NCBI GenBank assembly: GCA_013360215.1
Contig: JABWCP010000005.1
Location: forward strand, 175,575 to 239,574
Reading direction: 5' to 3'
From: a bacterium
GTDB taxonomy: Bacteria > CLD3 > SB21
Length of the DNA: 64,000 bases
Under the pieces are notes generated by a model. It had not been told where the DNA came from and did not search any database. It saw only the letters and a list, made by a program, of their open reading frames with translations. Made by a program: the position numbers and the translations under genes. Of this stretch, positions 4,842 to 64,000 are shown in pieces. Numbering within the stretch: position 1 is the stretch's first letter; the number at the start of each line of letters is the position of its first letter.

Positions 4842-5405
4842 TTAGTGTGCGGTACCCAAAGCCTGAAGTTTTAATGCGATGACTTCCGCTAAATTGGCCG
4901 CCTCCATATTCGGAGCAAACGTATCATCCAATGCCTGAATTCTGTTAACCGCCCCCGGATAATTTCCCAACTGATAATAACAGCTGGCCTGAACCCATAT
5001 CAGATCTTTATGTGTCACGCTGCGATCAAGCGAGAGTTTGAACTCCGGTTTTTTTCGCAACACAAAGGCCGTTTTATCCAATGACTGCAAAAGACTCCCG
5101 GAACCCCACAGCGTAACACTCCAACCGGCATATCCGTCCGGTATCGAATCCAAAGCTGCTTCTGAAAAATATACATTCGCCGTATTCAGATCGTTGAGTC
5201 GCATCGCGGACCAACCCGCACCAACACGCGCCGTCGAACCTTCGGTCGCGATCAAACTTTCATAACGACTTAGTGCTTCTTCATAATCACCGTCTTCAAA
5301 CAACTGTTGCGCCTTTTCGATAGCCGTTTCATCTTTGGACGGGCAACCTGTAATCCAAAAAACGGAAACCAATAAAATCAAATAGCGGATAGATAAAGTT
5401 TTCAT
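4842..5405 (-). CDS. Small TPR-like lipoprotein paired with the repeat surface protein
   Basis: The 187-residue product has a lipoprotein signal (WITGC lipobox) followed by helical repeats of TPR type, such as the segment AIEKAQQLFEDGDYEEALSRY. I do not know a named family. It is clearly related to the lipoprotein at 53952-54539: both share AIEKA near the mature N-terminus, an AGW motif, FVLR, and SVTHxDLIWxQAS. Its ATG overlaps the stop of the upstream surface-protein gene as ATGA (5402-5405), so the two are translationally coupled. It probably sits on a membrane facing the periplasm and helps fold, export or anchor its partner; that role is inference. Confidence 0.85.
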   Translation of the reverse strand: MKTLSIRYLILLVSVFWITGCPSKDETAIEKAQQLFEDGDYEEALSRYESLIATEGSTARVGAGWSAMRLNDLNTANVYFSEAALDSIPDGYAGWSVTLWGSGSLLQSLDKTAFVLRKKPEFKLSLDRSVTHKDLIWVQASCYYQLGNYPGAVNRIQALDDTFAPNMEAANLAEVIALKLQALGTAH

Positions 5406-8400
5406 TTTACTAAAACCATTCTGCGTGTTTGTGTGAATGCGCCCGAACTTAAACGATACAGATATACGCCCGAAGCTACCGCGAGGCCTTTTTCGTTTTT
5501 ACCGTCCCAAATTGTTTCAAAATTTCCAGCCGGTTTATATCCGCTGAAAAGTGTTCGCACTTCCTGCCCGAGCATATTATAAATTTTTAACGTCGTATGT
5601 CCCGGTTGTGAAATCGCAAAACGAATGGTCGTGGACGGATTAAACGGATTTGGATAATTTTGATCAAGGGCAAATGTTTTCGGTTGCACGATATATTCGG
5701 GATCATAAAACACCGCGATACGTACATTTTTATGAATGCGTGTTTCAACCGCGCCAAAGCGACCTTCTCCGGAAAGGCGTTGCCATTGATGATTTTCATA
5801 AGCATAGACACCGATACGCCCTTCATCAAAATTTTCATCCGCCGCACGCAACGCGCTTAGATGATCCTGATATCGGACATGCACGGTAACTTCGGCTGAG
5901 GAAGCCGTATTCAGCACATTCACCGCATCCGAAAGCGGGCGCAACAACATCGGGACATTCCCGGTTTCAGCTTGATCTAAAACAAGATATCCGCGTTGAT
6001 TACCTTCAAAAACAAAATTACTGTAGGTTGTTTTTTTGTCCAAAGAAACTACCGTGTAACTTCGTCGAATCGTATCCTTATTTCCGGCAAGATCAAATAC
6101 TTCACCCACGACCGGTATTACACCGACAGATTCGATGCTGTAGTCGCCGAAATACACTCCGTTGTTTGACTCGATATCAATCACCTGTCCGTTGGCGGTA
6201 AGCGCGGCCGAAGCGATGGTTTCGTTACTTCCCAATGCAAACCGAATACGCTGAAGTAACGGCGAAGATAATGCCGCCAGATATGCCACCGGCGCCGTAT
6301 TGTCCTGCACTACGACACGGAATGTATCCGATACCGTAAATTCACCGTCGGAAGCAATGATGCGTACGGAAACGTTACCAAAAAAATCCGCTGTACTGCG
6401 CAAATACAAGGAATCATTAGAAATCAACGGGTCTACCCCATCGGCAAATTTGACGAACGAAAAAGTCAGCGCGGTATGGTCCGCATCATAAAATACGGTT
6501 GAAAGTTTTTTGATCAGAACCTTACCGAAATTTTGCGGCAGCGTCGTATCCGATATTGTCGCCAAACGCACGGGTCTGTCGTTAACCGGTACAATTTGCA
6601 AGACCAGCGTATCCTTGGCTGACAAATCAGACAGATCCGTAGCTGAGAGATACAATTCCATCGAACCGGTCGAATCCTTTAGCGGCGTAACATACAACGT
6701 ATCGCCGGAAATCGCTGCGACCGATTTGCTATTGGAAAGTAATACACCATACGTGACGGGTTCCAAATCCGGTTCCGAAAAAATCATCGGCAGATACAAA
6801 ATCGCCGTACGGGCCGCATCCTCTTGTACACTCGTATCACGGGCTGCAAATATTCTACTCGGCGCATCATTGGCTGCTGTTACGGTAAAAAAAACAGTGT
6901 CGCGGATTTCCGTGTTGCCATCGGATACACGGATTTCAAGTGAAGCGCTTCCAAAAAAATCTCTATCCCCTTCCACGTACAACGAATCGTTAAGGATATA
7001 ACCCTCGACGCCGGCATTTACTACAAAAGAAGAAAAATCAATCACACCATCATCCGGATCACTATAATAATCTGGCAAATAAACCATCGCACGATACGAA
7101 AAATCCTCCGCAAAACTGGTGTCCCGCAACAGCGACGTACGCGCCGGCGGATCGTTGATCGGAATGATTTGAAGTTGGAATGTGTCGCGATTGCTCAAAG
7201 GCGTGGGATCGGAAGCTTCGATGATGACCTGGCTCTGACCGTTGAGGTTATTTTGTGACAAGGCATACAAACTGTCACCTGAAATACTCAACGCAACAAA
7301 CGGAGACGGCGTATGCACTGAAAATGTCATTGTTTCACCATCCGCTTCATGAAACACCAATGGCAGATAGGCTAACAATTGTTTTCCAAAATCCTCTTGT
7401 AAATTTTTCGGCCCGATCGGAGTAGCTACTTTCGGCGCATCATTTTGTTGCGTTACCGTGACAAGGAGCGTATCGTATGCAAAGTTACCGGAATTATCCT
7501 GCGCTTCAACGATCACTTCAAACAGACCGGATGAATCTTCAGATGAAAAGAACTCCAATGTGTTACCGGTGACCCACGCATCCGCTCCCGATACCAATGT
7601 ACCGGCAGAAAAAGTAAGCGAACTATTTTCCGGATCGGAAAAAATATCATGGAGGTTCGTTATGATCGTACGAGTGCCGCTATCTTCTGCAAATGTAGTA
7701 TCCCGTATCATTTGTATCCGTTCGGGCGAACGGCTCAGCGTCGTCTGTTCACCGACAGCCGCGTCTGTCAAATAATCCGCATCACTCCCCGTGCCGTTAT
7801 ACGTGAAAACAGAAAAATAATATTTTACTCCACGCGATAATCCGCTGATACTCACGGACGTTCCGCTGCCTGCAAAAACAGCGTAGGTATTACCGCCAAG
7901 ATCCGTGCCGCTGCCAAACGTCGAATTCGCTGTAATACTTTGACCGTCATTGGGTGCAAGCTCGATGAGCGCATCGGCGCGGACAAGTACCAAATGATAG
8001 TCGCCGTCACCACCCTGCCAAGCGATGGTCATCGCCGAAGAATCAATCCCGCTAAATACGACATCCGATGGCGGCAATGTCGGTTCACTGAATGCGCACA
8101 AACCCGTTACGGCCAGTGTCTGTGTAACACCGCTTTCATGTACGATCACACTGTCATACGATCCGGTAACCGAGGGCGCAAAACGCACATAAATTGTCGT
8201 AAGCTCAATTACCCCGCCGGTTTCAGGAAGTGTAATATTGGAACCAAACACGCCTCCGCTGGTTGTAGAGATTTCAAATCCATGCGGCGCATGTATTAAT
8301 AAAGAACCGCTCAAACCCGTAGCCGACACGGCATACGAAAACTCATCAGAAATCGCACCGGGCGCTGTAACCGGAAACGGTTGCAGGTCCCCTGAAAGTG

Positions 8401-8479
8401 AAATTTCCTGAGCCGACAGATACGAACGAAGACCGCCCGCAAAAAACATTACAAATAAATACACTCGAATGTAGCGCAT
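5402..8479 (-). CDS. Secreted repeat surface protein with tandem-95 domains and C-terminal sorting domain
   Basis: The protein has 1025 residues. A signal peptide (about residues 1-23, ending YLSAQ) is followed by an Ig-like domain (~25-130) and a fibronectin III-like domain (~135-245). Five tandem ~95-residue cadherin-like repeats come next (~253-730), each opening with a variant of RDTxxxEDFGK and containing DSLY and NDAP marks. A short Ig-like segment and a C-terminal sorting domain (last ~85 residues) follow. The sorting domain starts LDQNYPNPFNPSTTIRF and ends in a basic tail, as in type IX secretion cargo and related FCB proteins. It is likely exported to the cell surface, perhaps for adhesion. 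The lipoprotein gene downstream overlaps its stop codon. Confidence 0.9.
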   Translation of the reverse strand: MRYIRVYLFVMFFAGGLRSYLSAQEISLSGDLQPFPVTAPGAISDEFSYAVSATGLSGSLLIHAPHGFEISTTSGGVFGSNITLPETGGVIELTTIYVRFAPSVTGSYDSVIVHESGVTQTLAVTGLCAFSEPTLPPSDVVFSGIDSSAMTIAWQGGDGDYHLVLVRADALIELAPNDGQSITANSTFGSGTDLGGNTYAVFAGSGTSVSISGLSRGVKYYFSVFTYNGTGSDADYLTDAAVGEQTTLSRSPERIQMIRDTTFAEDSGTRTIITNLHDIFSDPENSSLTFSAGTLVSGADAWVTGNTLEFFSSEDSSGLFEVIVEAQDNSGNFAYDTLLVTVTQQNDAPKVATPIGPKNLQEDFGKQLLAYLPLVFHEADGETMTFSVHTPSPFVALSISGDSLYALSQNNLNGQSQVIIEASDPTPLSNRDTFQLQIIPINDPPARTSLLRDTSFAEDFSYRAMVYLPDYYSDPDDGVIDFSSFVVNAGVEGYILNDSLYVEGDRDFFGSASLEIRVSDGNTEIRDTVFFTVTAANDAPSRIFAARDTSVQEDAARTAILYLPMIFSEPDLEPVTYGVLLSNSKSVAAISGDTLYVTPLKDSTGSMELYLSATDLSDLSAKDTLVLQIVPVNDRPVRLATISDTTLPQNFGKVLIKKLSTVFYDADHTALTFSFVKFADGVDPLISNDSLYLRSTADFFGNVSVRIIASDGEFTVSDTFRVVVQDNTAPVAYLAALSSPLLQRIRFALGSNETIASAALTANGQVIDIESNNGVYFGDYSIESVGVIPVVGEVFDLAGNKDTIRRSYTVVSLDKKTTYSNFVFEGNQRGYLVLDQAETGNVPMLLRPLSDAVNVLNTASSAEVTVHVRYQDHLSALRAADENFDEGRIGVYAYENHQWQRLSGEGRFGAVETRIHKNVRIAVFYDPEYIVQPKTFALDQNYPNPFNPSTTIRFAISQPGHTTLKIYNMLGQEVRTLFSGYKPAGNFETIWDGKNEKGLAVASGVYLYRLSSGAFTQTRRMVLVK
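6290..7720 (-). repeat. Five tandem cadherin-like (tandem-95) repeats inside the 1025-residue surface protein
   Basis: The repeat start motifs are IRDTTFAEDSG, GPKNLQEDFGK, LRDTSFAEDFS, ARDTSVQEDAA and ISDTTLPQNFGK. The average period is about 286 bases or 95 residues. The units are diverged at DNA level, so they are protein-level repeats and not recent duplications. Boundaries are approximate. Confidence 0.8.
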
Positions 8480-19881: not shown

Positions 19882-19925
19882 GCATGTGCATTTCCGGTTC
19901 TACACTTCACCGAGGAGTTTTATCC

Positions 19926-21308
19926 ATGAAATCTCGTTTTGATTTTTTCATCATCGTTTTGTGCGTTTGCGGCGTAGTGACTTTGTCCGCTCAATCTGCT
20001 GCCGATTTAGTCCAACAGGCCAATGAAAAATTTTCATCCGCCGGTTCGGAGAAAGAATACAAAGAAGCCGCCGGAATTTATGAGAAAGCGGCCGCCGCCG
20101 ATTCGACCCTGGCTATCGCATGGGCAGGTCTTGCCAAATCGCACGCCATGATCGGCAATATCGCTTCGCTGAACTACAAAGATGATCTGAAAATCAAACA
20201 CTATAAAGAATCCGCTAAATATGCCTCCAAAGCCGGAAAACTGGATAAAGAAAACTCCGATGTGCAGACGGCGCTCGCTATGGTGTACCGCCAACTCAGC
20301 CAACGGGATAACTTGATGCGCGTTGCTCAGAAAGCGGTCGCGCTTGATCCCAAAAACGCCGAAGCTTATGACCTATGGGCTGATGCTTACTCCGAAGATT
20401 ATTTTCCAAAAAACGCTAATATTGATTCTTCCATTCTCATTCGTAAAAAAGCCGTTGAAGCCAATCCGAACTTCGCCAAAGGATATCGCGGCCTCGGCGA
20501 TGACTACGCATCCAAAGGGGATTTGGAACAAGCCGAGTCGTACTTTACCAAAGCTATCGCGATCAATCCGCAACACGCCGGTTCACATGATCGTTTAGGA
20601 AGGCTGTATTATCTACAGGGCGAATTTGAAAAAGCCAAAACCGAATTTAACACGGCTATCAAACTCGATCCGCGCTCGACGTTTGCCTATACCCATCTTG
20701 CGGACGTATTGGCCGACGAAGGAAATTTCAAAGAAGCGTTCCTCAAATTTACTTATGCTGTTGATCTCAATCCCAATGCCGCTTACGCACACGCCAGCCT
20801 TTCATGGATGTATCTGACGGCTAAAGACAAAAGTTTTCGCAATGTCGGGAAAGCCATCGAATACGGCGCTATGGCCGCAGAGTTAACCAATAACACCAAC
20901 CCTGAGTTTTTAGCTGTGGCTGCAGAAGCCTATTACGAAGCCAGTTTTAACAAATCGGAACTCCGTGACTCCGCAACCAATCGTCTCAAAATGGCGTTGA
21001 GCATAGAACCCGACAACTTTGAATATCAGGAAACCTTGGGACGGATGAATGCGAAGGAAAAAAGCCGTGAATATGTTTACGCATGGAAGCGCGGCGAGCG
21101 GCTTTTAAGACATAACCGCATTAATGACGCCATCAATGAATTTATTACGTCCGAAGAAAAGAATGACAAATTCGTACCCAATCTGATCAGCTATGCAAAA
21201 GCGCTGAAGAAAAAAGGCGATGAAGCTACCATGAAAGTATATTTAGAAAAAGCACGCAAGGCGGATAAGGCCGGAAAATACACGGCTTTGATTTCGTCTG
21301 TGCAATAA
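19926..21308 (+). CDS. Exported TPR-repeat protein
   Basis: This 460-residue protein has a signal peptide (about residues 1-23, ending TLSAQS). It consists of roughly nine TPR units, such as GDLEQAESYFTKAIAINPQH and GEFEKAKTEFNTAIKLDPRS. TPR arrays bind other proteins and here would work in the periplasm. The start has a GAGGAG site about ten bases upstream. The next gene encodes a longer paralog: the two share YRGLGxDY, HAGSxDxLG, FAxTHLADVLA and the WxY(L/I)xxKDKxxRN segment. They differ at the N-terminus, where this copy lacks the extra domain. Confidence 0.88.
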   Translation: MKSRFDFFIIVLCVCGVVTLSAQSAADLVQQANEKFSSAGSEKEYKEAAGIYEKAAAADSTLAIAWAGLAKSHAMIGNIASLNYKDDLKIKHYKESAKYASKAGKLDKENSDVQTALAMVYRQLSQRDNLMRVAQKAVALDPKNAEAYDLWADAYSEDYFPKNANIDSSILIRKKAVEANPNFAKGYRGLGDDYASKGDLEQAESYFTKAIAINPQHAGSHDRLGRLYYLQGEFEKAKTEFNTAIKLDPRSTFAYTHLADVLADEGNFKEAFLKFTYAVDLNPNAAYAHASLSWMYLTAKDKSFRNVGKAIEYGAMAAELTNNTNPEFLAVAAEAYYEASFNKSELRDSATNRLKMALSIEPDNFEYQETLGRMNAKEKSREYVYAWKRGERLLRHNRINDAINEFITSEEKNDKFVPNLISYAKALKKKGDEATMKVYLEKARKADKAGKYTALISSVQ

Positions 21309-21356
21309 ACTTATTTCTATGTTCTAGGTTCAGTCTTAAAACAAAAGGTAAACCGT

Positions 21357-23213
21357 ATGCGCGCTTGCATGAATTTGTTTTTTTTCGCCATGATGATTAC
21401 CGCTTCGCTTTGGGCGCAACTCAAAGTAGCTGTGGTTCCGTTTTACAACGGTACCATGCTTTCCAAAAACGAATGGCTTGGTCATGGATTTTGCGAATCG
21501 CTCAACACCGATCTGAGCGAAGAAAAATCTGTCCTGATCATGGATCGCCCCGATGTGCTCGCTGAAATCAAAATGAACGGTTTTAAACTTCTGGACATGC
21601 TGGACGAACAGAAAGCCTTGACGGTTGCCCGTTCGCTGGAAGTGGATAAAATCATTATCGGTTCTTTTGACATTCCGGGTGGTGCAACGCCTTCGATCAA
21701 AGTGCAGGCGCGTTTCATAGACGTCAAAAGCGGTAAAGCGGATACTAAAAACGCTTACACCGCCGAAGGCAAGTATTCCATGACTAATATTTACGCGATG
21801 TACGGGCAGATCGCGGCGCGTGCGCTTGTTAGTTTCGGAAAACGTGCGGCGGATGAAACCGCCATCACCGGTAAAGGTTCGATCAATGTGGACGCTTACG
21901 AGCCATACATCAAAGGTATTTTGCAATATGACGAAAGCAGCACGGTCGAAGATTATTTAGCGTCGATTGCTCTATTACAACAAGCTATCAAAACCGACAG
22001 CAGCTTTGCCATGGCATACGCCGGCATGGCAAAAGCCTATGCCAAAATCGGCCGTATACAGGATATTAATTTTAAAGCTGATGAAAAAACCGAGAGTTAT
22101 AAAAAGGCCTTAGATGCCGGTCTCAAAGCCGCCAAGCTTGATAAAAATCTTGCTGTAGCGTGGACGGCTCTCGCTCTCACGTATCGCGAACTGAAAGAAC
22201 GCGATCAGTTGATCGAAGCGGCCCGCAAAGCCGTCGCACTCAAGCCCAGTCAATATGATGCGTACGATATGCTGGCCGACGCATTCTCTGCCAATTTTTT
22301 CCCCGCTCATAAAAATAACGACTCGTCCGTTTTTTATCGCAAAAAAAGCGTAGAGTACAATAATAAATTTGCCTCCGGATACCGCGGACTCGGGCGCGAT
22401 TATTTCGACAAAGGGGACTACAAAAACGCCGAAGAGGCATACCAACGCGCCATCACACTCAATCCTAAACATGCGGGTTCCCGTGATCTGCTCGGTCAGG
22501 TATACACCATACAAGGCCAATACGAAGAAGCTAAACAGCAATTTCGCGAAGCCATAAAACTCGATGCCAAATCCGCTTTTGCTCATACGCATCTTGCCGA
22601 CGTACTGGCGATGGAAAAAAATTATGCCGAAGCCGTCACTTCCTATCAGTCTGCAATAGCTATCAACGCCAAATTCGCTTTAGCGTACAACGGCTTGGCA
22701 TGGATTTATATCGCGTCTAAAGATAAAACCTTACGTAATCCGGCCAAAGCCGTAGAAAACGCGCAAGCCGCCGTTCAGCATTCTGACAGCAAAAACGCTT
22801 CTTATCTTTACACGTTGTCCGAAGCGCATTTTTCCGCCGGCGCTCATGATGCCGCACTTGAGACTATCGGCAAAGCTCTCGCTCTGGATCCGCATAATAA
22901 CGACTACGCCGAAGCCCAAAGTCGCATTACCAAAAAAGAAAAAAACAGTGATTATGTTTTTACACTGCGACGGGGTATGATGCTGATGAAACAAGGTCGA
23001 CAGGACGAAGGTGTCGTCGAATTTGAAGAAGCGAACAAGCTCAGCCCCCAAAACGTCTACATACTTTTTACGTTAGCTAAATACTACGACAGCAAAAAAG
23101 AATTCAAAAAAGCGTTCGAATATTATTATCGCGCGCGCAGCTGCGACTGGGATAAAAAATATTCGAAATCCATTCAGGAACGAATGAATGAGCTGGCACC
23201 CTACGGAAATTAA
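21357..23213 (+). CDS. Exported TPR protein with N-terminal CsgG/FlgO-like domain
   Basis: The 618-residue protein has a signal peptide (about 1-20, ending SLWAQ). An alpha/beta domain follows (~21-165: LKVAVVPFYNGT, MDRPDVLAEIK, VDKIIIGSF) that resembles the CsgG/FlgO/TolB N-terminal fold used by lipid-exposed assembly proteins. TPR repeats fill residues ~180-600. It is a paralog of the gene 48 bases upstream. A role in periplasmic assembly or as a scaffold is likely but not proven. A strong terminator follows. Confidence 0.85.
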   Translation: MRACMNLFFFAMMITASLWAQLKVAVVPFYNGTMLSKNEWLGHGFCESLNTDLSEEKSVLIMDRPDVLAEIKMNGFKLLDMLDEQKALTVARSLEVDKIIIGSFDIPGGATPSIKVQARFIDVKSGKADTKNAYTAEGKYSMTNIYAMYGQIAARALVSFGKRAADETAITGKGSINVDAYEPYIKGILQYDESSTVEDYLASIALLQQAIKTDSSFAMAYAGMAKAYAKIGRIQDINFKADEKTESYKKALDAGLKAAKLDKNLAVAWTALALTYRELKERDQLIEAARKAVALKPSQYDAYDMLADAFSANFFPAHKNNDSSVFYRKKSVEYNNKFASGYRGLGRDYFDKGDYKNAEEAYQRAITLNPKHAGSRDLLGQVYTIQGQYEEAKQQFREAIKLDAKSAFAHTHLADVLAMEKNYAEAVTSYQSAIAINAKFALAYNGLAWIYIASKDKTLRNPAKAVENAQAAVQHSDSKNASYLYTLSEAHFSAGAHDAALETIGKALALDPHNNDYAEAQSRITKKEKNSDYVFTLRRGMMLMKQGRQDEGVVEFEEANKLSPQNVYILFTLAKYYDSKKEFKKAFEYYYRARSCDWDKKYSKSIQERMNELAPYGN

Positions 23214-33500: not shown

Positions 33501-33936
33501 CTCGACCGTGCGGAAGTGAACCGGGTTTACCTTTTCGTGGCGAATACCGAACAAATGATTGGCTTTGCCTGTCATAACAGTTAAGCCCGTCGCCATCCGT
33601 ACCTATCCATAGTTTTCCGTTTCGGTCTTCATAGATTGTCTGAATCCAGTTATCTGAAATCGAAAGGCTATCTTGCGGATCATGACGAAATATTTTAAAA
33701 CCGTATCCATCATAACGATTAAGCCCATCTTGAGTACCCAACCATATGAACCCCAGTTTATCCTGCAAAAGACAATGGACGGCGCTTTGCGATAAACCTT
33801 CTTCGATAGAAATACGCTTGAACGTGGCCTGTTGACTAAAAACAGAAACAGGTAAACCCGCCAAACTGAACATCATTCCTGCAACGGCAGAAAAGAAAAC
33901 AAAAACCGAACTCCGTTTTTTGGAAGCAAAGGTCAT
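30514..33936 (-). CDS. Two-component propeller sensor histidine kinase
   Basis: This 1140-residue kinase has an N-terminal signal segment. About ten repeats of the regulator-propeller type follow (WIGTxxGLNRYD and relatives, ~35-740), then a Y_Y_Y domain (~750-830), one membrane span, a coiled coil, a HisKA dimerisation part with the His in GIAHEINNPLTF, and a HATPase domain with FDPFFTTRPVGQGRGLGLSE. The periplasmic propeller pair should bind a ligand, often sugars in Bacteroidota. No receiver domain is fused and no response regulator is adjacent. The ATG at 33936 is preferred over a TTG at 33939. A TATAAT lies at 34081-34076 on this strand without a good -35 box. Confidence 0.92.
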   Translation of the reverse strand: MTFASKKRSSVFVFFSAVAGMMFSLAGLPVSVFSQQATFKRISIEEGLSQSAVHCLLQDKLGFIWLGTQDGLNRYDGYGFKIFRHDPQDSLSISDNWIQTIYEDRNGKLWIGTDGDGLNCYDRQSQSFVRYSPRKGKPGSLPHGRVWAISEDARGKLWVGTIGGGLAMLNQTTHAFTIYDTSNTSLASNEIMSLRATQDGKLWVGTFGGGLYRMDPQTMQMQVYRHDSRNASSLADDRIRTIIEDQYGTLWIGTYNGLSILDRSDQEQGRFRSVQDSVLTSRAVFALTENTDQTVWVGTFGSGIRTIDRTGRIVSSYKYDAKDATSLGDNSLYAFFCDRSGRMWIGTYSGGVNVFDTRKKDFRSMRHDPHNSASISDNRVRSIWKDTDGTMWLGTFKGLNRLDSRTGSIFVFTSEPSAASSLPENRIRIIRRDTKGRLWIGTSAAGLAVMDSLTNKITIYKHDPSSENSLPNNGVWSIAEDAQGTMWFGTTGGGFCRFDEKKKNFERVQPALGEPGYFSNDPVLALHTGRDGKLWIGTAGGLKSFAPTERRFIDLDFATNTPRSSSHSRNRVRSIYEDHDGVLWVGTDVGLQRWDPDSSTLRLYNHRQGLISDVIYGILEDTQRRLWLSTNYGIARFDPQSESFRNYDMTDGLANNEYNQNAYFRSHDGWFYFGGINGLDYFHPDSIKDNTDKFAVVITGLELFNQTVEVGKSYNGFILPKAISELEELVLSYRESVIGLKFSALTFTQPEKNRYAYKMEGFDEDWNYIDAGRRIATYTNLDPGTYRFQVRATNHDGIWNENTCVLTIRITPPWWQSWWAYAVYTGLVVLSLMLFVRIRIQNERKRHELEKARELAKINQELNDTIVRLRDTQAQLVQSEKMASLGQMTAGIAHEINNPLTFVYGNFEGLKDSVEKMRRRYAAGGDTLESTALPSPSETHGWMHELLEQINNGITGSRRIRDIVENLRKFARIGESGYKETDINADLLRIIDLFVKQHNDIRIDTSLGEDCIAHVNASEMNQVFFNVLTNAVQAIREAETQAVIRSGSGVISVQTTSALAHDQAWISIVITDNGVGIAPDDLKKIFDPFFTTRPVGQGRGLGLSEAYGIVHKHGGHIDVSSETGKGTTMRTVLPKGHHPV

Positions 33937-34110
33937 CAATAAAACCCGTATGAGTAAAAGGAAATGCTGCGTAATTAAATGAAAACCAAGGCGGCTTAAC
34001 TTAATTCAAACCAATAAGTATCGCTACTACATTTTGCATATAGTTTTTTGCAAATTGCTTTGAAGGGAATGCTTTATTATAGCGTGCATACCGAGGAGAG
34101 AACGTATTAT

Positions 34111-53951: not shown

Positions 53952-54539
53952 TTAGTATAACCATCGTCGCGCCATAACCTCCGCCGAAAGAGATTCTAAT
54001 TTATCTGAAAGCACGTCGGCGATATTGACGGCGTTGATATCCGTCGTATAATTCGGCTCCAATTCACGAATTTTGGCATAGCATTGCGAATAATTTGACG
54101 CATGCAAATATGAAGACGCCTGATACCAAATCAGATCGCTATGCGTAACGGATGATTTATGTGAAAATGTATAGGCATTATCATGACGAAGCACAAACTG
54201 CGCATACATTATAGCGGATGGATAATCCTCAAGCGACCAACTCACAGCGCACCAACCCGCATACGCATCGCTTAAGCTGTCACCGCTGACGTTCTGAAAA
54301 TATGTATGTGCTGTCGCCGCCTGATTTTCATCTATCGCACACCAACCCAAACCTACAAACGCTTCGGCATTGCCTATGGCGGATTGTTCGGCGAAAATAA
54401 TTTTCGCTTCCGAAACATTTCCTTCCTCGTACAGAGTCCATGCTTTCTCGATCGCATCGGGATCCGCTTCGGCAGGACCACAAGCATTAAATATTAAGGC
54501 ACCGGCAACGAGCCCCATGAATAATTTTGAACGTTTCAT
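53952..54539 (-). CDS. Small TPR-like lipoprotein paired with the giant surface protein
   Basis: The 195-residue product has an N-terminal signal with FNAC as a loose lipobox and helical repeats (AIEKAWTLYEEGNVSEAKI). It is a diverged paralog of the lipoprotein at 4842-5405. Shared marks are AIEKA, DAYAGW, FVLR, SSVTHSDLIWYQASSYL and the ending DVLSDKLESL. It follows the giant protein by 22 bases. In both cases the order is surface protein, then lipoprotein. The role as dedicated helper is inference from this repeated pairing. Confidence 0.82.
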   Translation of the reverse strand: MKRSKLFMGLVAGALIFNACGPAEADPDAIEKAWTLYEEGNVSEAKIIFAEQSAIGNAEAFVGLGWCAIDENQAATAHTYFQNVSGDSLSDAYAGWCAVSWSLEDYPSAIMYAQFVLRHDNAYTFSHKSSVTHSDLIWYQASSYLHASNYSQCYAKIRELEPNYTTDINAVNIADVLSDKLESLSAEVMARRWLY

Positions 54540-54561: not shown

Positions 54562-57500
54562 TTATTTGATCAACATCATTTTACGTGTGACCAATCCGCT
54601 TTTTGTTTCAAGACGGTAAATATACACACCGCTGGCTGAAAGCTGACCTGCCGCGTTACGGCCATCCCATACGATCTTATGATAACCGGCTTCGCGTTTT
54701 TCGTCCACCAGTGTTTTGACGAGTTGACCTAAAAGATTGTACACCGCGATTTTAACGTTTCCATTTTCCGTAAGGCCAAACTCAATCGTCGTGGACGGAT
54801 TAAACGGATTGGGATAATTTTGCGCGAGTTCCAGACGATCCGGCACAACGACATGCCCTGCGCGATACAGCGCGACGTACGTACCATAGTGAGCGACCTT
54901 TGCACGCACTTCGTATCCGTCCGACTGACCGCCTACGTATTCATATCCCATATCGGTTTTTCGGTAGATACCGATTTGTCGCTTATCAAATTGCGATTGA
55001 ACGGATGCCTCTGCGAACATCTCTTTATCAAGTCGGATCACTAAGTTTAATACATCACTTATTTCTGTCGTACCGTGGATACTTACAGACGTGCTTACCA
55101 ATATTTCGTTTAATTCCTCTTCCGTATTTTCACCCATGAGGATAAATCCATCGGACGACTTCATCCGCCCATTAGACGAAAGAAAAACCGAAGTTGATTT
55201 CAGCGCCAGTGTGTGTGATTTTGAAACTGCAGCAACCTGATAAATTCGCTGAACCGAACGCGTATTGCCGGCCGCATCTTGTGCGTTAATAGCTACAGCA
55301 AGGCTGCCTTCCGTATTCATTTGATACTTACCGGTATAAAGCGTACCCACGCCCACACGCTGGAGTGATACGGTACGATTATCCGTAACCGTATTTGCTG
55401 TGTTTTTCATCGTTACTTGCGCTTGCACGGTTCCGGAGAGCACTTCGCTGGAATAAACCTGTAAATCAATGTATGATTTCAAAATCGGGCCTTGATTGAA
55501 CCAAAGACTAAGCACTGGGCGCTTGGCATCTACCGTAAAACTTTGAACGTTGGACACCGTGTTCCCGCCATGGCCATCATGCGCCGTGATGCGCCAGAAA
55601 TACGACTGTGCGCTGTCCAGATCGGATGCCGGTGTGTAGCTCGTATCGGACGTCGAAGCATTGATCACTGCAGAAGCAAATGTATTATTCGTGGATACCT
55701 CTATCGTGTATGACAGCACATCACCATCCTGATCTATAGCTTTGCGCCAAACAAAAGCAGGACGAAGCGCTGTAAGCAGGCCATTATTTAAAGGCGTGAC
55801 TAAAGTAAACGCCGACGGCGCATCGTTAACAGGATTAATTGTGACGGTAAACGTATCCGAAATCGCTACCAAGCCATCCGAGACCGATACAATAACCTTT
55901 GGCGTACCGCTAAATTGGGAAGTACTTGTAAGGTACAGTGTATCATTTTGTATGGAAGTTGAAACGCCAGCTTCCGCCGTCGCCGTAAAGGTCAACGCAT
56001 CAAGATCCGAATCCGTAAAGAACTGCGTCAAAACACTATGGCGTATGCGCCCAAAATCTTCATTGAGTGTAGTATCGCGCAGCATCTGGGCAAGTACAGG
56101 CGAATGATTGGTAGAAAACACATTGACGATCAAGGTATCGGCAACCGTATATTCGCCGTCAGATGCCGTGACACGTAACGTGGACGCACCTGTAAAACCA
56201 TTTGTACTGATAAGATACAGCGTATCGTTTTGAATCAGACCGTTGACTCCGGCATTGAGCGTCGAAACGGCATAATTGAGCGTTCCATTATCTATGTCAT
56301 TGAAAACTGCCGATAACTTATCTGCGTAGGTTTTACCGAAATCCTGTGCTAAATCCCTGTCTGCGATCTGATTGGTCCGGTTCGGCGCATCATTGACCGG
56401 TGTAACGATCACATTGATCGTGTCGGCGACGCTGTTTCCGTAACTATCTTGCGCCTGGATACGCACGACGGCTGTTCCGTTAAAATCGGCCACTCCGCTA
56501 AGATATAGCGAATCTTGTGCGATGATCGCAGAAACGCCGGAAGAAAGGATATGGGATGAATAACTCAGATTAACATCATCCACATCATTGAAAAAGTCAT
56601 TCAATCGATACATCTGCGTTTTGGCGAAATCCTCAGTGAATGTGGTATCGCGCAAACTTTGAACAAGCGTAGGCTGGAAGTTTTCCGGATTGACGGTGAC
56701 ATAAAATGTATCTGTCACCGAATATTCCGCGTCATGTGCTGTTACAAGAATTCCCACATTACCCACAAAACCACCAACACTGATAATATAAAGACTGTCA
56801 CCGGAAACTTCCGTATTGACACCCGCTTGCAAAGCGGTCGCTGTCATCGTAAGCGCATCATTGTCCGCATCGTTAAACACGTTCGAACTTTTTTCGACAT
56901 ATGATTTTCCAAAATCCACCGTTTTAGTGATGTCCGCTATATGCGCGATGCGTTGCGGCGCATCATTTACATTGGTTATCTCTACAGCCAACGTATCGCT
57001 GACCGATAGCGCACCGTCAGAGGCTATTAGGCGAAGAAGAATATTACCGTAAAAATCTTTTGCACTTTGCAGATACAGGCTATCATTGGTGATTGTCGTT
57101 GTCCCGCTACCGGCGATAACTTGACTACTATAAATAAGCGTCGAAGATTCGACATCTGTGAAGTGCGAATTGAGCTCCGCGATAAAAGTTTTTCCGATAT
57201 CCTCGCTCCACGTCGTATCGCGTAACGACTGCATCACAGTGGGTGTATAGTTGAATGGGACAACGGAAACTGTCAACGTATCTACAAGAGTATATTGGGT
57301 ATCGGAAGCCGTGATCCGCAAAAACGCATCACCGAGGAATCCGGCTACGCTTTCGGCATACAGCGTGTCACCGGAAATATAGGTAACAACATTACCGCTC
57401 ACTACGGACACGGTGTATGAAAGCGCCGCATCATCCGGATCGGAAAAATAGTTCGGTAAATAACCTAAAGCCGTTTTGTCAAAATTTTCCACCAACGTTT

Positions 57501-60500
57501 GGTTATTGAGCGCTGTCGTTTGCACGAGCGGATCATTGACCGGCGTTACATTTACATCAAACGTATCGGATACAGAGTACTGTCCGTCGCTCGCTGTAAT
57601 GCTGAGTGTGGCCGTCGCGGTATGAAAATCTTTAACACTCATCACATATAACGAATCATGCTGTATGTGAGCGGTTACACCTGTGGCGATGGCCGTTATC
57701 ATATAGCTCAACGAGTCAGACTCTACATCCGCAAAATGGTCGGATAGATTGACATAAAAAATTCGCCCAAAATCCTCTGCTAGGGACGTATCTCTGATCG
57801 CGGATGCGACATACGGCGCATCATTTTGCATTGTGACATCCACACTAAAAGTATCACGGATCGTATATTCACCGTCGTTCGCCGTAAGTTCGATCGTTGC
57901 GATACCATTAAACGAAGCAACGCTTAAGAGGTAGAGACTGTCATTGGAAATGTAAGGTGTCGCACCGGATGCGATCGTACTTCCACCGAACGTGAGTCCA
58001 TTGTCCACGTCACCGAAAATATCCAATAAGCGAGCCACATAAACTTTGCCGAAGTCTTCATTGTACGCCGTGTCACGCACCGCCGACAGAATGGTCGGTG
58101 CATCGTTGATATTATTTACCGTGATTTGCAGATAACCGAAGGACTGGCCGCCGTAATTATCCGCCGCATAATACATCACGGTATCTACACCGGCAAAATT
58201 GGAATCCGGTTTGTACGTGATCGTCAGATTACCCGAGTTAATCGTAGCCGTGCCATGCCGCGGTTGGGAAATCGAAGCGATATGGAGCACATGGTTTTCC
58301 GGGTCGGTATCATTATCAAGAACAGCCGATGTAATGCTGCTTTCTTCTGAAATTTCTTCGGTATCCATGACGACAACAGGATTGCTATTATTCTGCGCTT
58401 TTTCCAAAATAATATTATCCAAGCCGGCACTATCCGTCCCTGCTGCATATTCACCACGAATACGCAGAGCGGTAACATTGGACAATACGTTTTGCAATTC
58501 AGATTGTGTCGGAACAGACCCTGATGTTTTTTTCCATCCTGCCGTCTCGTTGAACACCAAACCAAAACTCGTGAATGTAGTACGCGGATTAGCCGGGAAA
58601 TCATAATTTAGCTGAACACCGTTACCGATTAAAATCACATCGGGTTGCGAATTGTCCGTTCCTGCAGGGCTTTGTTTGATATCATAACGCAGCGTTTTAT
58701 CGTAAACGGAACTGAGGTCGCCGAGAAATTTGGAAGGCGCGTTAAAATACCACCAGGCGCCCGTCACGGCATCGGTCGCCGTAAAATAACCACCAGGATT
58801 TCCCCCTGTCGAACGGTATGCGGAGTCCGATACATCGTTGACCGTTGACCAATTTTCCATATCGGTGTCAAATTTACTCCAAGTGACAAGGAATGAATCG
58901 CCGGATGTAACTGCAACAAACATCGTAGCAGAATCCGCCAATGATCCGTCGGAGACATAAAACTTGAAACTATCCACGCCGGTATAATACATGTTTGGTA
59001 TGTACACAACAGAGGAGGATGTACCATCAATCTGTGCGTCACCAAACTTAGGCCGTGATACCGCTGACACCGAGAGTGTTTGATTTTCGGCGTCCGTCGC
59101 TGTTGCCACCACATTGATGCGTACGACATTATATTGCGTGACCGTCGTTGTTGTATCTTTTGCGTCAGGACGATCATTAACACTGTTAACCGTGATTTTT
59201 ACCGCCGCCGTATCCAAACCGCCGCGGCCGTCAGCAATCACATACTGCAAACTATCCGAACCGGAATATTCCGAAGCGGACGTATAAATAATCGTCGTAT
59301 CGCCACTACCATTTACCACGGTTCCGTGATAAGGGAATCCGGAGAGAATTTCGACGATACGAAGCGCGTCACCATTGGTATCCGTATCGTTGCGTAAAAC
59401 AGAAAGCGTAGATGGGACGTCTTCTGAAGCCGTCACGATATCATTGGTCGCTACCGGAGGTGTATTGGACGAATCTGCAGTCACAAGAAAAAGCGCCGTG
59501 TCTCTATACATCGGTACAAAATCATATGGCCCGCCGGTACGCAGTCCCTGTATCGCTCCGAAACCTCCGGACTTACTCGCATAATTCATGATTTTAAACG
59601 TGTCGCCAAGCGCCGGCAAAAATCCATTAAGTAAATTTACATTTACGGTTCCCGCGAGTGTCGCGCTGCCGCTTGCGCGCAATTCATCAAATTGACCAGC
59701 GTTTTTTCCGCTAATCTCGGCATCATAAACGGCCGTACTCTTATTATTGATATTTCCGGTGAAACGTAGTTTGCCGGGCGAAGCGCCGGGACGTATTGTA
59801 CCGTAATTATCAAAACGCGTACCGACATCAAGAACGCCTTTGCCGGTGATAATACCGGTGCTGAAGTTAACAAGACTGTCATAACACAAAATTGTCAACC
59901 CTGAATCAATTTGTAACGTACCGTAATTACTGATTTGATATTCAAAACTCGAAATGCCCGTGCCGCCGGATTTACGCAGCAACCCATAATTGTTTAGATA
60001 CGGTTTGGCAGCTGCAAACATCCAGTTAGAATTCACATCGGTTGCCAATGTCGTCGTCGCACCGGGCATGTTGTTATACACAGCTCCTGCGTCAAACATG
60101 ACAGGATTATTCCAGTTGGCAGTACCGTAGTTGTTGACTATGCGTCGAAAAAGAGTTCCGTTATTATAATCAAAGACTGATGCCGGCGACAAGGTCAGTG
60201 TTTGTGCAGGAGTATTGGAACTCAATGTCCCTGTCAACTGCAAATAATGACGAACAAACCACGGGTTATTTCCACCGACGGTTCCATTAACCAGCAGCGT
60301 ATCTACTTTCAGGGAGTCGGTCGTAATAAAATTTGCCGTACCGCCGGAAACATTCAGTCTATTTCCAACACTCAGGAGATGACCGGACGGCATTCTGAAA
60401 TTAACCGTACCGCCGGTGATGGTTAGCCTGTTGGATGTACTGAATGTGCTGTCAAAATTGACGGTACCTCCACCGATCGTAGTATTGCCAGTAATATTAT

Positions 60501-63500
60501 ATACACCGTCCATCGTAAAATTAGTAGGACTGATGAGTACGGTACCACTCCCTGTGATATTGCTCGACGCGTCAAAAGAGTGATTTCCTCCGGCAAAGTC
60601 AATCGTTGAGCCCGGCGAAAGTATAAAACTACCTCCGGCATGGGTACCGCTGGTTCCAAAAAACAAAGTACCCGACCAAACTTCGATTGTACCATAGTTA
60701 TTCACGTAATATTCGAAGCTTGATATACCGGTACCACCGGACTTTCTAAGTGTTCCGTAATTATTAAAATTATTCGAAGTTCCGGCAAACCAGTTGGTGT
60801 TTCCATCCAGCGGCCAATCGGTCAAAGCCCCCGGCATATTATTATACACTGCGTTCTGGTCAAGTCCCCAAGGTGTTGTCCAAATAGCCGTTCCGTAATT
60901 ATTGAATGTCCTTTTAGAAATACTGCCAGTCCCAAGCCATAAAAATGCCGCCGTAGGAGCGATAATTATTTGCTGGCTTGAATCTGTTCCCACGATAGCG
61001 CTGTTGGTAAATTTAAGAGTATCCTGAATTAGAATTATTGAGGTGCCTCCGAAATTGCCGTTCTGCATCCAAACCTCTTCCAGTTTGGCCGTATCGGATC
61101 TGTCAAAATAAACATTCGTAGCCGCAAACGTATGTCCAATAATGATTCGTTTCGGTAATTTTATGATATGGCCATTCGGTCCGTCAAAATAATATGTGCT
61201 GCCGTACAATATCATCGTAGGCCCTGTAACATTTATTATGCCTCTCAGTCGTATCGTTCCGCCAAACGCATCACCTAAAATCACACCTTTACCTTGTATC
61301 GTACACGAACTGTCATATGTCTGATTAGCTGCGTCGATTTGCCAAGTTGCTGCGGAATCAATGTCAATCACGGCACCTGTAGCGTTATTAACTCCGCCAA
61401 AACGAAGTTTGTTGAGTTTGATTTCAACGCGTGAACCATTGTAGTGGTTGGTCGCAACATTCCATTCCGTATTTGCGCCCGCCGATTTACGGATAGTTCC
61501 GTAGTTTTCAACGCGCGGTACACTTCCCGTTTGATGCCAATAGCTAGATCCTGAGTTGGTTAAAATAATAGCGCCCGGCCGATTGATGAATACCGCCCCG
61601 TTACTAACACGCCATTCGCTCGAAGTCCAGTTTAACGTTCCGTAATTATCAATAGTACGCTTGCTGAAAAAACTCAAACCAGATGCATTCAAAATAGCGC
61701 TTGATCCGATAATCAACGTATTTGTGGAATCCGTACCGGAGAGAGTGCCTCCGGAGAAAGCAAATCTATTATTTATTTTTACTGTAGCCAAACCATTGAG
61801 GATGCCGCCACTCGTGATCGAAAGTACATTGAACTGGAGCGTATCCGGCTGATTAAAATACACTGTTCCTCCGGAGATCGTAACACTATCCACAGAAGGA
61901 ATCCGTGAAGCGACATGTGCTGTACCGCCATTAAAATCCAAAATACCGGAGCCATTGATCGTATTTGAAGTGTCCATGTACTGAGTACCACCGTATATCC
62001 GATACCGTGCACCATTGGATAAATTAAAATTTGTTGTTTTAGATGTATGGTTGGACTGGACTGCTAATGTTCCAGAAGCTACGTTGTAGGTTGCCAAAGA
62101 ATCGTACAGCGGAACATTGATCGTAGTTTGGCCCGCACCGGACGACTTGTGAATAGTCCCGTAGTTATAGATCATCGGATCAGAACCGCCATTCGGAAAA
62201 TTATTCCAATACCAATCTCCGGTGATATTGATCAATGCACCAGGGCGATTGATGAAGATCGCACCGTAATCCCAATCCCAGTGTCCTGCGGTCCAATTGA
62301 TTGTACCATCATTGATAAATGTTCGTTTCTGAACTTGACGGGTATTCACGGTTATATTCACCGTACCGCTGTTGACAAATGTTACGTTAGAATCGCTTCC
62401 ATAAATATATCCGCCGCTCCAATCGTACCGCGTTTTAACACGAATCGGAGAATTACCCGTTATGATACCGCTTGACTGAACCATGCGATCCACAATGACC
62501 GAATCATTGGTGTTAAATGTTGCCGTATTGCTAGTCATGGTCAATCGCGACAAGATCAAAGAGTCTTTGGTGTTCAAGGTTACGTTACCTGAAATGCCGA
62601 GATACGGTCCGAAGCTCGGTGCAGATCCGTTAAATGACACCGTAGCGGAGACGTCCGTGCTGTCTGAAACATCATAGAGTCCGTTGATGGTATAGGTTCC
62701 ACTGGTAAACCGTACTGTTCCCGTTCCACTGATTGACGATGCTGCATCCCACGTTTGCGTTCCGCCCGCATAGATGGCGAAACGGCTATTACTCAAAGTC
62801 CACGGCGTATTGACATTAGTAGCACTGGCGGATACCTGCAACGTTCCCGATTGAATCTGATAGGACGCGTTTGTATTTACGGCATCAACATTGAGGTAGG
62901 CATAACTACTACCGGAAGACACACGAAATGTCCCGTTATTAATAAACTTCGGCGCCGGCGCTGCACCAAAATAATTGATATAGTATCCTGCAGCGGTCGC
63001 ATCTATGATTGCGCCTGATTCATTACGAATAATTGCACCGGTATTATTATCCCAATGTCCCAATGTCCATGAAATCGTTCCTTGGTTGATCAGCGTTCGT
63101 TTAGATAGTGTACGAGTACCCGAGTTAAAGAGGGCTGCCGTCTGGATTATGGTTGCCACGGTTGAATCCGTTGCGGATTGTGTCCCTCCTGACCAATTAA
63201 ACCAATCTTTTATACGTACCGGAGAATTGCCGGTGATCGTACCGTTAACTTGAATCAATGTGTCAATCACCAGTGTATCGTTCATAGTCAAATTGATCGT
63301 ACCGCCGGATTGACGCAAGCTTCGCATAGTGATGTTTTGCGGTGACGTGATGTTTATCGTGCCGCTGGTTATCGAAACGCTATCGCCGAGCGATAGTGAT
63401 TTTCCTGCAGAAGCATTAAATGTCATGCTGGACGAAGTCAAAAAGTACGAAACACCTTTAATATTTACGTCTCCTGTAAACGTAGCCGCTCCGCTGCCTA

Positions 63501-64000
63501 TGGTTAAATTTCCTGCACCACTGATTGATGAATTGGCATCCAACGAAGCGGTCGTACCGGTGAAATACAATGTAGCTCCGGAGGCAATCGTCACATCCGC
63601 ATCCGTTGTTATCAGTGAACGATAGAAATACGTTACCCCAGTTTGAAGGTCAACCGTGGATCCGCTGTATGAATAAATATCTGCATCCACAGTAAAGTTG
63701 GTTGCATTGACCGAACGACGGAATATTCCGTAGTTATTCAAACGTGAAAGCGCTCCATTGATATGATCCAATGCGGGAGATGATGTGTTGATACAATCAA
63801 AGAGATTATTGTTGTTGATAACTGTCCCGGAATCCATTATAAGACTGGACGTACCGCCATAGCTAATCGTACCATTATTCTCCACCGTGATCTTTTGCCA
63901 ACGAAGCGTAGATGTAGGATTGAGCGTAAGCGTCTGACCGCTACCAATCAACAACTTGATCGTCGAATCCGTAGCACGCAATACACCCTGATTCATCGTA
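54562..64000 (-). CDS. Giant secreted surface protein, N-terminus outside the window
   Basis: The open frame continues to the window edge, so more than 3144 residues are seen and the N-terminus with any signal peptide is missing. In order there are six beta-helix-like units (~1-1490) with an autotransporter-type closing part (AEISGKNAGQFDEL). Two tandem-95 units (~1505-1700) come next, then a laminin-IV-like domain (~1700-1868), one more tandem-95 unit and eight cadherin-like ~95-residue repeats (~1965-2730). The protein ends with an Fn3-like domain and a C-terminal sorting domain (last ~90 residues, LAQNYPNPFNPSTTIEF). It is likely displayed on or released from the cell surface for adhesion or biofilm formation. 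Confidence 0.92.
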   Translation of the reverse strand, partial: TMNQGVLRATDSTIKLLIGSGQTLTLNPTSTLRWQKITVENNGTISYGGTSSLIMDSGTVINNNNLFDCINTSSPALDHINGALSRLNNYGIFRRSVNATNFTVDADIYSYSGSTVDLQTGVTYFYRSLITTDADVTIASGATLYFTGTTASLDANSSISGAGNLTIGSGAATFTGDVNIKGVSYFLTSSSMTFNASAGKSLSLGDSVSITSGTINITSPQNITMRSLRQSGGTINLTMNDTLVIDTLIQVNGTITGNSPVRIKDWFNWSGGTQSATDSTVATIIQTAALFNSGTRTLSKRTLINQGTISWTLGHWDNNTGAIIRNESGAIIDATAAGYYINYFGAAPAPKFINNGTFRVSSGSSYAYLNVDAVNTNASYQIQSGTLQVSASATNVNTPWTLSNSRFAIYAGGTQTWDAASSISGTGTVRFTSGTYTINGLYDVSDSTDVSATVSFNGSAPSFGPYLGISGNVTLNTKDSLILSRLTMTSNTATFNTNDSVIVDRMVQSSGIITGNSPIRVKTRYDWSGGYIYGSDSNVTFVNSGTVNITVNTRQVQKRTFINDGTINWTAGHWDWDYGAIFINRPGALINITGDWYWNNFPNGGSDPMIYNYGTIHKSSGAGQTTINVPLYDSLATYNVASGTLAVQSNHTSKTTNFNLSNGARYRIYGGTQYMDTSNTINGSGILDFNGGTAHVASRIPSVDSVTISGGTVYFNQPDTLQFNVLSITSGGILNGLATVKINNRFAFSGGTLSGTDSTNTLIIGSSAILNASGLSFFSKRTIDNYGTLNWTSSEWRVSNGAVFINRPGAIILTNSGSSYWHQTGSVPRVENYGTIRKSAGANTEWNVATNHYNGSRVEIKLNKLRFGGVNNATGAVIDIDSAATWQIDAANQTYDSSCTIQGKGVILGDAFGGTIRLRGIINVTGPTMILYGSTYYFDGPNGHIIKLPKRIIIGHTFAATNVYFDRSDTAKLEEVWMQNGNFGGTSIILIQDTLKFTNSAIVGTDSSQQIIIAPTAAFLWLGTGSISKRTFNNYGTAIWTTPWGLDQNAVYNNMPGALTDWPLDGNTNWFAGTSNNFNNYGTLRKSGGTGISSFEYYVNNYGTIEVWSGTLFFGTSGTHAGGSFILSPGSTIDFAGGNHSFDASSNITGSGTVLISPTNFTMDGVYNITGNTTIGGGTVNFDSTFSTSNRLTITGGTVNFRMPSGHLLSVGNRLNVSGGTANFITTDSLKVDTLLVNGTVGGNNPWFVRHYLQLTGTLSSNTPAQTLTLSPASVFDYNNGTLFRRIVNNYGTANWNNPVMFDAGAVYNNMPGATTTLATDVNSNWMFAAAKPYLNNYGLLRKSGGTGISSFEYQISNYGTLQIDSGLTILCYDSLVNFSTGIITGKGVLDVGTRFDNYGTIRPGASPGKLRFTGNINNKSTAVYDAEISGKNAGQFDELRASGSATLAGTVNVNLLNGFLPALGDTFKIMNYASKSGGFGAIQGLRTGGPYDFVPMYRDTALFLVTADSSNTPPVATNDIVTASEDVPSTLSVLRNDTDTNGDALRIVEILSGFPYHGTVVNGSGDTTIIYTSASEYSGSDSLQYVIADGRGGLDTAAVKITVNSVNDRPDAKDTTTTVTQYNVVRINVVATATDAENQTLSVSAVSRPKFGDAQIDGTSSSVVYIPNMYYTGVDSFKFYVSDGSLADSATMFVAVTSGDSFLVTWSKFDTDMENWSTVNDVSDSAYRSTGGNPGGYFTATDAVTGAWWYFNAPSKFLGDLSSVYDKTLRYDIKQSPAGTDNSQPDVILIGNGVQLNYDFPANPRTTFTSFGLVFNETAGWKKTSGSVPTQSELQNVLSNVTALRIRGEYAAGTDSAGLDNIILEKAQNNSNPVVVMDTEEISEESSITSAVLDNDTDPENHVLHIASISQPRHGTATINSGNLTITYKPDSNFAGVDTVMYYAADNYGGQSFGYLQITVNNINDAPTILSAVRDTAYNEDFGKVYVARLLDIFGDVDNGLTFGGSTIASGATPYISNDSLYLLSVASFNGIATIELTANDGEYTIRDTFSVDVTMQNDAPYVASAIRDTSLAEDFGRIFYVNLSDHFADVESDSLSYMITAIATGVTAHIQHDSLYVMSVKDFHTATATLSITASDGQYSVSDTFDVNVTPVNDPLVQTTALNNQTLVENFDKTALGYLPNYFSDPDDAALSYTVSVVSGNVVTYISGDTLYAESVAGFLGDAFLRITASDTQYTLVDTLTVSVVPFNYTPTVMQSLRDTTWSEDIGKTFIAELNSHFTDVESSTLIYSSQVIAGSGTTTITNDSLYLQSAKDFYGNILLRLIASDGALSVSDTLAVEITNVNDAPQRIAHIADITKTVDFGKSYVEKSSNVFNDADNDALTMTATALQAGVNTEVSGDSLYIISVGGFVGNVGILVTAHDAEYSVTDTFYVTVNPENFQPTLVQSLRDTTFTEDFAKTQMYRLNDFFNDVDDVNLSYSSHILSSGVSAIIAQDSLYLSGVADFNGTAVVRIQAQDSYGNSVADTINVIVTPVNDAPNRTNQIADRDLAQDFGKTYADKLSAVFNDIDNGTLNYAVSTLNAGVNGLIQNDTLYLISTNGFTGASTLRVTASDGEYTVADTLIVNVFSTNHSPVLAQMLRDTTLNEDFGRIRHSVLTQFFTDSDLDALTFTATAEAGVSTSIQNDTLYLTSTSQFSGTPKVIVSVSDGLVAISDTFTVTINPVNDAPSAFTLVTPLNNGLLTALRPAFVWRKAIDQDGDVLSYTIEVSTNNTFASAVINASTSDTSYTPASDLDSAQSYFWRITAHDGHGGNTVSNVQSFTVDAKRPVLSLWFNQGPILKSYIDLQVYSSEVLSGTVQAQVTMKNTANTVTDNRTVSLQRVGVGTLYTGKYQMNTEGSLAVAINAQDAAGNTRSVQRIYQVAAVSKSHTLALKSTSVFLSSNGRMKSSDGFILMGENTEEELNEILVSTSVSIHGTTEISDVLNLVIRLDKEMFAEASVQSQFDKRQIGIYRKTDMGYEYVGGQSDGYEVRAKVAHYGTYVALYRAGHVVVPDRLELAQNYPNPFNPSTTIEFGLTENGNVKIAVYNLLGQLVKTLVDEKREAGYHKIVWDGRNAAGQLSASGVYIYRLETKSGLVTRKMMLIK
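55810..58090 (-). repeat. Eight tandem cadherin-like repeats in the giant protein
   Basis: Each unit is about 95 residues and opens with a variant of RDTxxxEDFGK, for example VRDTAYNEDFGK, IRDTSLAEDFGR, LRDTTWSEDIGK, LRDTTFTEDFAK and LRDTTLNEDFGR. The next ~20 residues follow LxxxFxDxDxxxLxF. Units of the same type occur five times in the protein at 5402-8479. Boundaries are approximate. Confidence 0.8.
58390..58905 (-). other. Laminin-IV (laminin B)-like domain in the giant protein
   Basis: Residues ~1700-1868 read SKFDTDMENWSTVND, then GGNPGGYFTATD, WWYFNAPSKFLGDLSSVYDK, LRYDIKQSP, FNETAGWKK and ALRIRGEYAAGTDSAGLDNI. The order and the marks FxxDxExW, GGNPGGY, WYFxAPxKFLGD and IRGEYxxGxDxxxLDN match the laminin IV type A domain. 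This domain is known mainly from animal basement-membrane proteins and occurs sporadically in bacteria. Confidence 0.8.
59800..64000 (-). repeat. Six beta-helix-like units in the giant protein
   Basis: Each unit of about 230 residues holds a KRTxxNxGTxxW mark, a GAxxxNxPGA mark and an NYGTxRKSxG mark, readable as SKRTLINQGTISW, QKRTFINDGTINW, SKRTIDNYGTLNW, SKRTFNNYGTAIW and RRIVNNYGTANW. A partial first unit lies at the window edge. Boundaries are approximate. Confidence 0.78.

Follow-up and report, generated by a model that had tools for sequence, protein, structure and literature searches.

The window analysed here, a 64,000-nucleotide stretch at positions 175,575 to 239,574 of contig JABWCP010000005.1 (GenBank assembly GCA_013360215.1; GTDB lineage CLD3; SB21), carries two copies of a gene pair that encodes a very large protein ending in a type IX secretion system (T9SS) type A sorting domain (C-terminal domain, CTD) and a small tetratricopeptide repeat (TPR) lipoprotein (Table 1; G000 denotes this genome and C5 this contig). 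A sequence-only reading had drawn attention to these pairs, and the coordinates and frames it gave for all four genes were correct, including a second large protein that is open at the window edge. In the first pair the cargo and lipoprotein genes overlap by 4 nt (ATGA, 5402-5405) and in the second the lipoprotein gene follows after a 22-nt gap, both as it had described. The right edge of the window is also the end of contig C5 (239,574 bases), so P0004 is truncated by the assembly and its N-terminus and signal peptide are not visible; P0003 has a signal-like N-terminal start as judged by eye. The proposed homology of the two lipoproteins was confirmed by alignment (36% identity over 169 residues, E 9e-35), so the failure to align that had been named as a possible refutation was not observed, and the motifs quoted for them are present. 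Both large proteins match the sorting-domain model TIGR04183 (43.7 and 39.3 bits in a protein-level search, cut-off 23) and the tandem-95 model NF012211, the latter match being under the 90-bit cut-off in the smaller protein (P0003, 77 bits).

Table 1. Genes of the two lipoprotein/cargo pairs and their parts, in window positions.
Feature	Position	Strand	Details
TPR lipoprotein 1 (P0001)	4842..5405	minus	187 aa; lipobox ITGC, Cys21; AlphaFold2 TPR superhelix, pLDDT 86
T9SS cargo protein 1 (P0003)	5402..8479	minus	1025 aa; Fn3, cadherin/tandem-95 repeats, pre-CTD module, type A CTD
Pre-CTD pairing module, cargo 1	5669..6295	minus	Ig/PKD-like plus second beta domain; profile match G000:C5:181243-181869, E 1.6e-56; leave-one-out E 2.8e-22
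T9SS type A sorting domain (TIGR04183), cargo 1	5414..5656	minus	45.8 bits, cut-off 23 (whole-genome search); contains QNYPNPFNPST
TPR lipoprotein 2 (P0002)	53952..54539	minus	195 aa; Cys20
T9SS cargo protein 2 (P0004)	54562..63999	minus	at least 3145 aa; tandem-95 repeats, Laminin_B, pre-CTD module, type A CTD
Pre-CTD pairing module, cargo 2	54829..55521	minus	profile match G000:C5:230403-231095, E 1.3e-66; leave-one-out E 3.8e-34
T9SS type A sorting domain, cargo 2	54574..54816	minus	47.5 bits (whole-genome TIGR04183 search)

A profile built from the two window lipoproteins identified 14 copies of the family across the 3.72-Mb genome, which also contains 37 TIGR04183 sorting-domain matches. 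All 14 lipoprotein genes directly adjoin a T9SS type A cargo gene; 13 lie downstream of the cargo stop codon on the same strand at a gap of -4 to +38 nt, and the remaining one, on contig C45, precedes its cargo gene by 5 nt. With 37 sorting-domain matches and an assumed ~3,100 genes, the probability of this arrangement arising by chance is ~1e-23, and chance is excluded as its cause. The sequence-only reading had described the large proteins as sharing a repeat family and a sorting domain, and both are found in the two window proteins, but the repeats did not hold up as the feature that is paired. Cadherin/tandem-95 repeats occur in only 5 of the 14 cargo partners and the outward domains of the others differ widely, comprising LamG with FG-GAP, FG-GAP with ASPIC/UnbV, an M4 peptidase, a sortilin-like propeller, a NosD beta-helix, LVIVD, and leucine-rich repeats (LRR) or Fn3; tandem-95 was therefore rejected in this role.

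Common to all 14 paired cargo proteins is a region of ~220 residues located between the outward domains and the sorting domain, here called the pre-CTD module. Each of the 14 modules is found by a profile of the other 13 (E 6e-17 to 2e-39), and none of 20 unpaired sorting-domain proteins of G000 tested with these leave-one-out profiles is clearly recognised (best E 0.003). Searched with the module profile, the whole genome yields the 14 paired genes and no others, meaning that 0 of the 23 unpaired cargo proteins carry the module. Pairing thus follows the module, not CTD cargo in general or tandem-95 repeats. The module matches no Pfam family and gave no significant match in a PDB sequence search. 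In an AlphaFold2 model of the module-to-CTD fragment (overall predicted local distance difference test score, pLDDT, 83.5), residues 1-88 form an Ig/PKD-like domain that aligns to PKD domains at Z about 10, and residues 92-200 form a second beta domain. A linker at QNYPNPFNPST, modelled with low confidence, leads to the sorting domain at residues 225-298. The Ig half weakly resembles the C-terminal Ig domains of SiiE (2yn3/2yn5), a likeness limited to the common Ig fold, and SiiE belongs to type I secretion. An M23-like peptidase in a sister-family genome (L149, G007:C26) weakly matches the second half (E 5e-6), so this half alone may be part of a wider beta-domain family. No natural fusion of the module with the lipoprotein was seen among the loci inspected.

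The sequence pattern of a lipobox Cys after a short hydrophobic start is present in all 14 lipoproteins of G000 and in most homologues. AlphaFold2 predicts an all-alpha lipoprotein, with most of its mature part above pLDDT 90, and structural alignment of the model to TPR superhelices gives Z 14-16; Pfam TPR models match 8 of the 14 copies. The PilF/PilW pilotins and BamD are likewise small outer-membrane TPR lipoproteins (pilotin PilF, Z 14.5; Bacteroidota BamD, 9hiv, E 5.6e-6) but are single-copy assembly factors. As candidate identities, BamD (TIGR03302; 22.2 bits against a cut-off of 81.4), the SycD/LcrH type III secretion chaperone (TIGR02552; 18.7 and 14.4 bits against 104.8) and PrsT (far under the family cut-off) were all rejected, as was the PDB match 9hiv_D as a possible relative, since it comes from a paper on the Bacteroidota beta-barrel assembly machinery (BAM) complex and is most likely its BamD. 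SprE/PorW is also a TPR lipoprotein acting with the T9SS (PMC10994853, PMC8754138), but it has many TPRs and belongs to the translocon core, whereas the present family is of ~190 aa, has up to 14 copies and is tied to individual cargo genes; length (187-195 aa in the window) and copy number, judged without a SprE model, argue against this identity. Two adjoining paralogous TPR-rich proteins encoded elsewhere in the window (19884-23213, plus strand) share long stretches by eye and were missed by the lipoprotein profile search.

The TPR fold is characteristic of chaperones and pilotins, PilF among them, and SprE provides a precedent within the T9SS translocon, being a TPR lipoprotein itself (PMC10994853). 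Both points would suit a periplasmic escort, that is, a lipoprotein that faces the periplasm, binds the module and hands the cargo to the SprA translocon without anchoring it later. We regard this as the main rival to the surface anchor favoured below and as rather unlikely, though the least unlikely of the alternatives. In other phyla an Fn3-like domain often separates the TPR part from the lipid anchor (L183, L184, L189, L126, L127), and Fn3 stalks are more usual on surface proteins, which speaks against an escort.

All nine genomes of the phylum that were examined carry the lipoprotein, and the seven genomes of the taxonomic family have 5-14 copies each (matches at E 1e-12 or better). In the other six family genomes, 41 of the 42 copies examined adjoin a module/CTD gene, 39 of them downstream and two in inverse order (one with its cargo gene cut by a contig end); the remaining copy is cut by a contig end, hence 41 of 41 evaluable copies are paired. 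Pairing accordingly holds at 55 of 55 evaluable loci in the family, for 14 of 17 lipoproteins in a sample of other phyla, and at 25 of 28 evaluable loci in one further phylum, that of G053, where 33 of 82 genomes have the lipoprotein and nearly all of the paired loci have a detectable module. Partners initially missed by the module profile have the same layout in diverged form when inspected by eye, one being recognised by profile as well. A search of relatives with a four-member lipoprotein alignment yielded three loci of true relatives and one weak, unrelated-looking match, and a lipoprotein-like match in G047 (L128) that adjoins a permease-like protein was discounted as a probable TPR lipoprotein of another kind. 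Copies in the sister family (G007, G008) match more weakly, and no adjoining CTD gene was detected, though two of the three lie near contig ends. It had been suggested that homologues occurring mostly away from QNYPNPFNPST-ending proteins would speak against a functional pair; nearly all adjoin such proteins, and the proposal that lipoprotein and cargo form a functional pair is well supported.

Distances among the lipoproteins correlate with those among the modules of their partners, both for the 14 paralogous pairs of G000 (r = 0.74, Mantel p 2e-4) and for 52 pairs of the taxonomic family (r = 0.87). The two halves of the module both contribute, with 0.71 and 0.59 in G000 and 0.87 and 0.79 in the family, and the sorting domain, which sits physically between the module and the lipoprotein gene, shows a weaker correlation (0.19 and 0.63). 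A periplasmic escort would fit both the pairing and this co-variation equally well. Joint duplication could also produce co-variation if the lipoprotein made no stable contact with the cargo and either served a common purpose from the same operon or merely hitch-hiked. Duplication of whole cassettes does occur, as at L094 (G002:C11:31770-36363), where two tandem cassettes with closely similar lipoproteins apparently reflect a recent duplication of the whole pair, and across genomes the nearest neighbours in the lipoprotein and module distance sets agree in only 25 of 52 cases. We nevertheless consider this explanation improbable, since pairing persists across phyla and in both gene orders, and tracks one module (14 of 14 against 0 of 23), which hitch-hiking does not explain.

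The SprA translocon and the PorV family, both expected for type A cargo, are encoded in the genomes checked. SprA was identified in all 20 genomes checked, in 19 of them above the family cut-off (674 bits over the frame in G000), and PorV-family barrels in 8 of 8 (up to 229 bits in G000); PorP/SprF (TIGR03519) is above its cut-off in none of the 8 genomes checked. In G065, the one genome representing its phylum, a PorV-like barrel gene, a sorting-domain gene and a TPR lipoprotein gene share an operon in two different orders (L120, L158). The PorV-like gene adjoins the lipoprotein gene or is one gene away at both copies, as might be expected if the lipoprotein worked mainly with a PorV-family barrel as carrier subunit and not with the cargo module. 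This seems very improbable to us because the G000 stretches inspected around PorV-family matches have no adjoining lipoprotein of the family, and several of these matches adjoin unpaired CTD genes. As a separate observation, several unpaired sorting-domain genes (G000:C28, C12, C13; L153, L155, L157) adjoin a PorV-family barrel gene and no TPR lipoprotein gene, a gene order that suggests a second, barrel-based pairing class.

Canonical PorU is absent from all seven family genomes, which have 5-14 lipoproteins (best score in G000 251 bits, cut-off 420), and also from G014 (four lipoproteins) and G162 (two lipoproteins; 85% complete). It is present in 13 genomes, each with 1-2 lipoproteins, so that PorU absence is associated with a higher lipoprotein number (Mann-Whitney p 7e-5, or 0.009 when the family counts as a single value). 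A periplasmic escort does not predict that pairs should be more numerous where canonical PorU is missing. The only PorU-like protein in the family is a ~1740-aa C25 protein (G000:C28:22948-27348, L195; also L200, L197), a counterpart of which is found alongside canonical PorU in several other genomes.

Because the lipoprotein co-varies with the module and the pair-richest genomes have no canonical PorU, we favour an anchoring role, and give about an even chance to the lipoprotein being a dedicated cognate outer-membrane tether that holds module-bearing type A cargo. Cargo would be made with a Sec signal peptide and, to judge by its CTD, taken through the SprA translocon. The lipoprotein would be lipidated at its N-terminal Cys, as its signal indicates, and would be placed at the outer membrane so that its TPR groove lies near the bilayer. 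Exclusive co-occurrence and co-variation point to the TPR domain as the part that would bind the ~220-aa module before the CTD, and this binding would tether the exported cargo, making the lipoprotein a counterpart of SprF/PorP for type B cargo and of PorU with anionic lipopolysaccharide (A-LPS) for ordinary type A cargo. Paralogous pairs would have diversified jointly, yielding as many as 14 cognate sets whose outward-facing domains differ. The earlier suggestion of a chaperone, anchor or secretion helper is thus refined in two respects, in that the partner is defined by the pre-CTD module and not by tandem-95 repeats, and that the role is not settled by sequence.

Several observations weigh against a tether. 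Noise in the CTD distances (odd/even reliability 0.28 and 0.62) keeps the weaker CTD correlation from being decisive, and the CTD may itself be the co-varying part; co-variation could, moreover, come from co-duplication without contact, which alone can give part of the signal. A few homologues (L122, L137, L128, L168, L176, L177) are not beside a CTD gene, and there are clear module proteins with no adjoining lipoprotein, although these are few (L144 and L147). No clear enrichment of an acidic surface-export signal was found after the lipid Cys (D/E fractions 0.14-0.30). Finally, the divergent C25 PorU-like protein of the family keeps catalytic-type His and Cys residues, so sortase activity may not be lost.

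Among features of the window outside the pairs are two paralogous sensor kinases of ~1100-1140 aa (30514-33939 and 48998-52309, both minus strand) with repeated IWIGT-like propeller motifs, as read from the translations.

Known surface retention of T9SS cargo proceeds by covalent attachment to A-LPS for type A and by SprF/PorP barrels for type B. The latter have been proposed to hold type B cargo such as SprB and PG1035 at the surface (PMC9143113, PMC10202324) and resemble the present pairs in several ways: each cargo has a cognate outer-membrane partner, the genes are clustered, there are many such pairs of paralogues, the cargo includes giant adhesins with repeats, and the last 100 residues of the cargo are not enough by themselves. 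They differ in combining 14-stranded beta-barrels with a type B CTD, whereas here a soluble-fold, predicted all-alpha TPR lipoprotein is combined with a type A CTD (TIGR04183). The PorU/PorV/PorQ/PorZ attachment complex, which links type A cargo to A-LPS, likewise acts at the surface on cargo with a type A CTD, but it is enzymatic and cargo-general, and its canonical PorU is missing in the lipoprotein-richest family. A cognate partner of T9SS cargo is therefore known in kind, and what would be new is an unrelated TPR lipoprotein in this position, for type A cargo. No published description of such a lipoprotein/cargo pair was found in the literature searched, which excludes most subscription papers.

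We propose, tentatively and at somewhat less than an even chance, a further form of T9SS cargo fixation in several little-known phyla, in which cognate TPR lipoproteins bind a CTD-adjacent module and which largely replaces PorU/A-LPS in the lineage without canonical PorU. For lineages whose genes are listed only as TPR or T9SS-sorting-domain proteins, a module before the CTD together with an adjoining TPR lipoprotein provides an annotation rule, and the up to 14 natural cognate sets per genome are material for tests of recognition specificity. If true, a cargo-specific lipoprotein partner recognising a defined module would constitute a new class of T9SS accessory protein, and would account for the way in which T9SS bacteria that lack canonical PorU may keep giant adhesins and enzymes on their surface.

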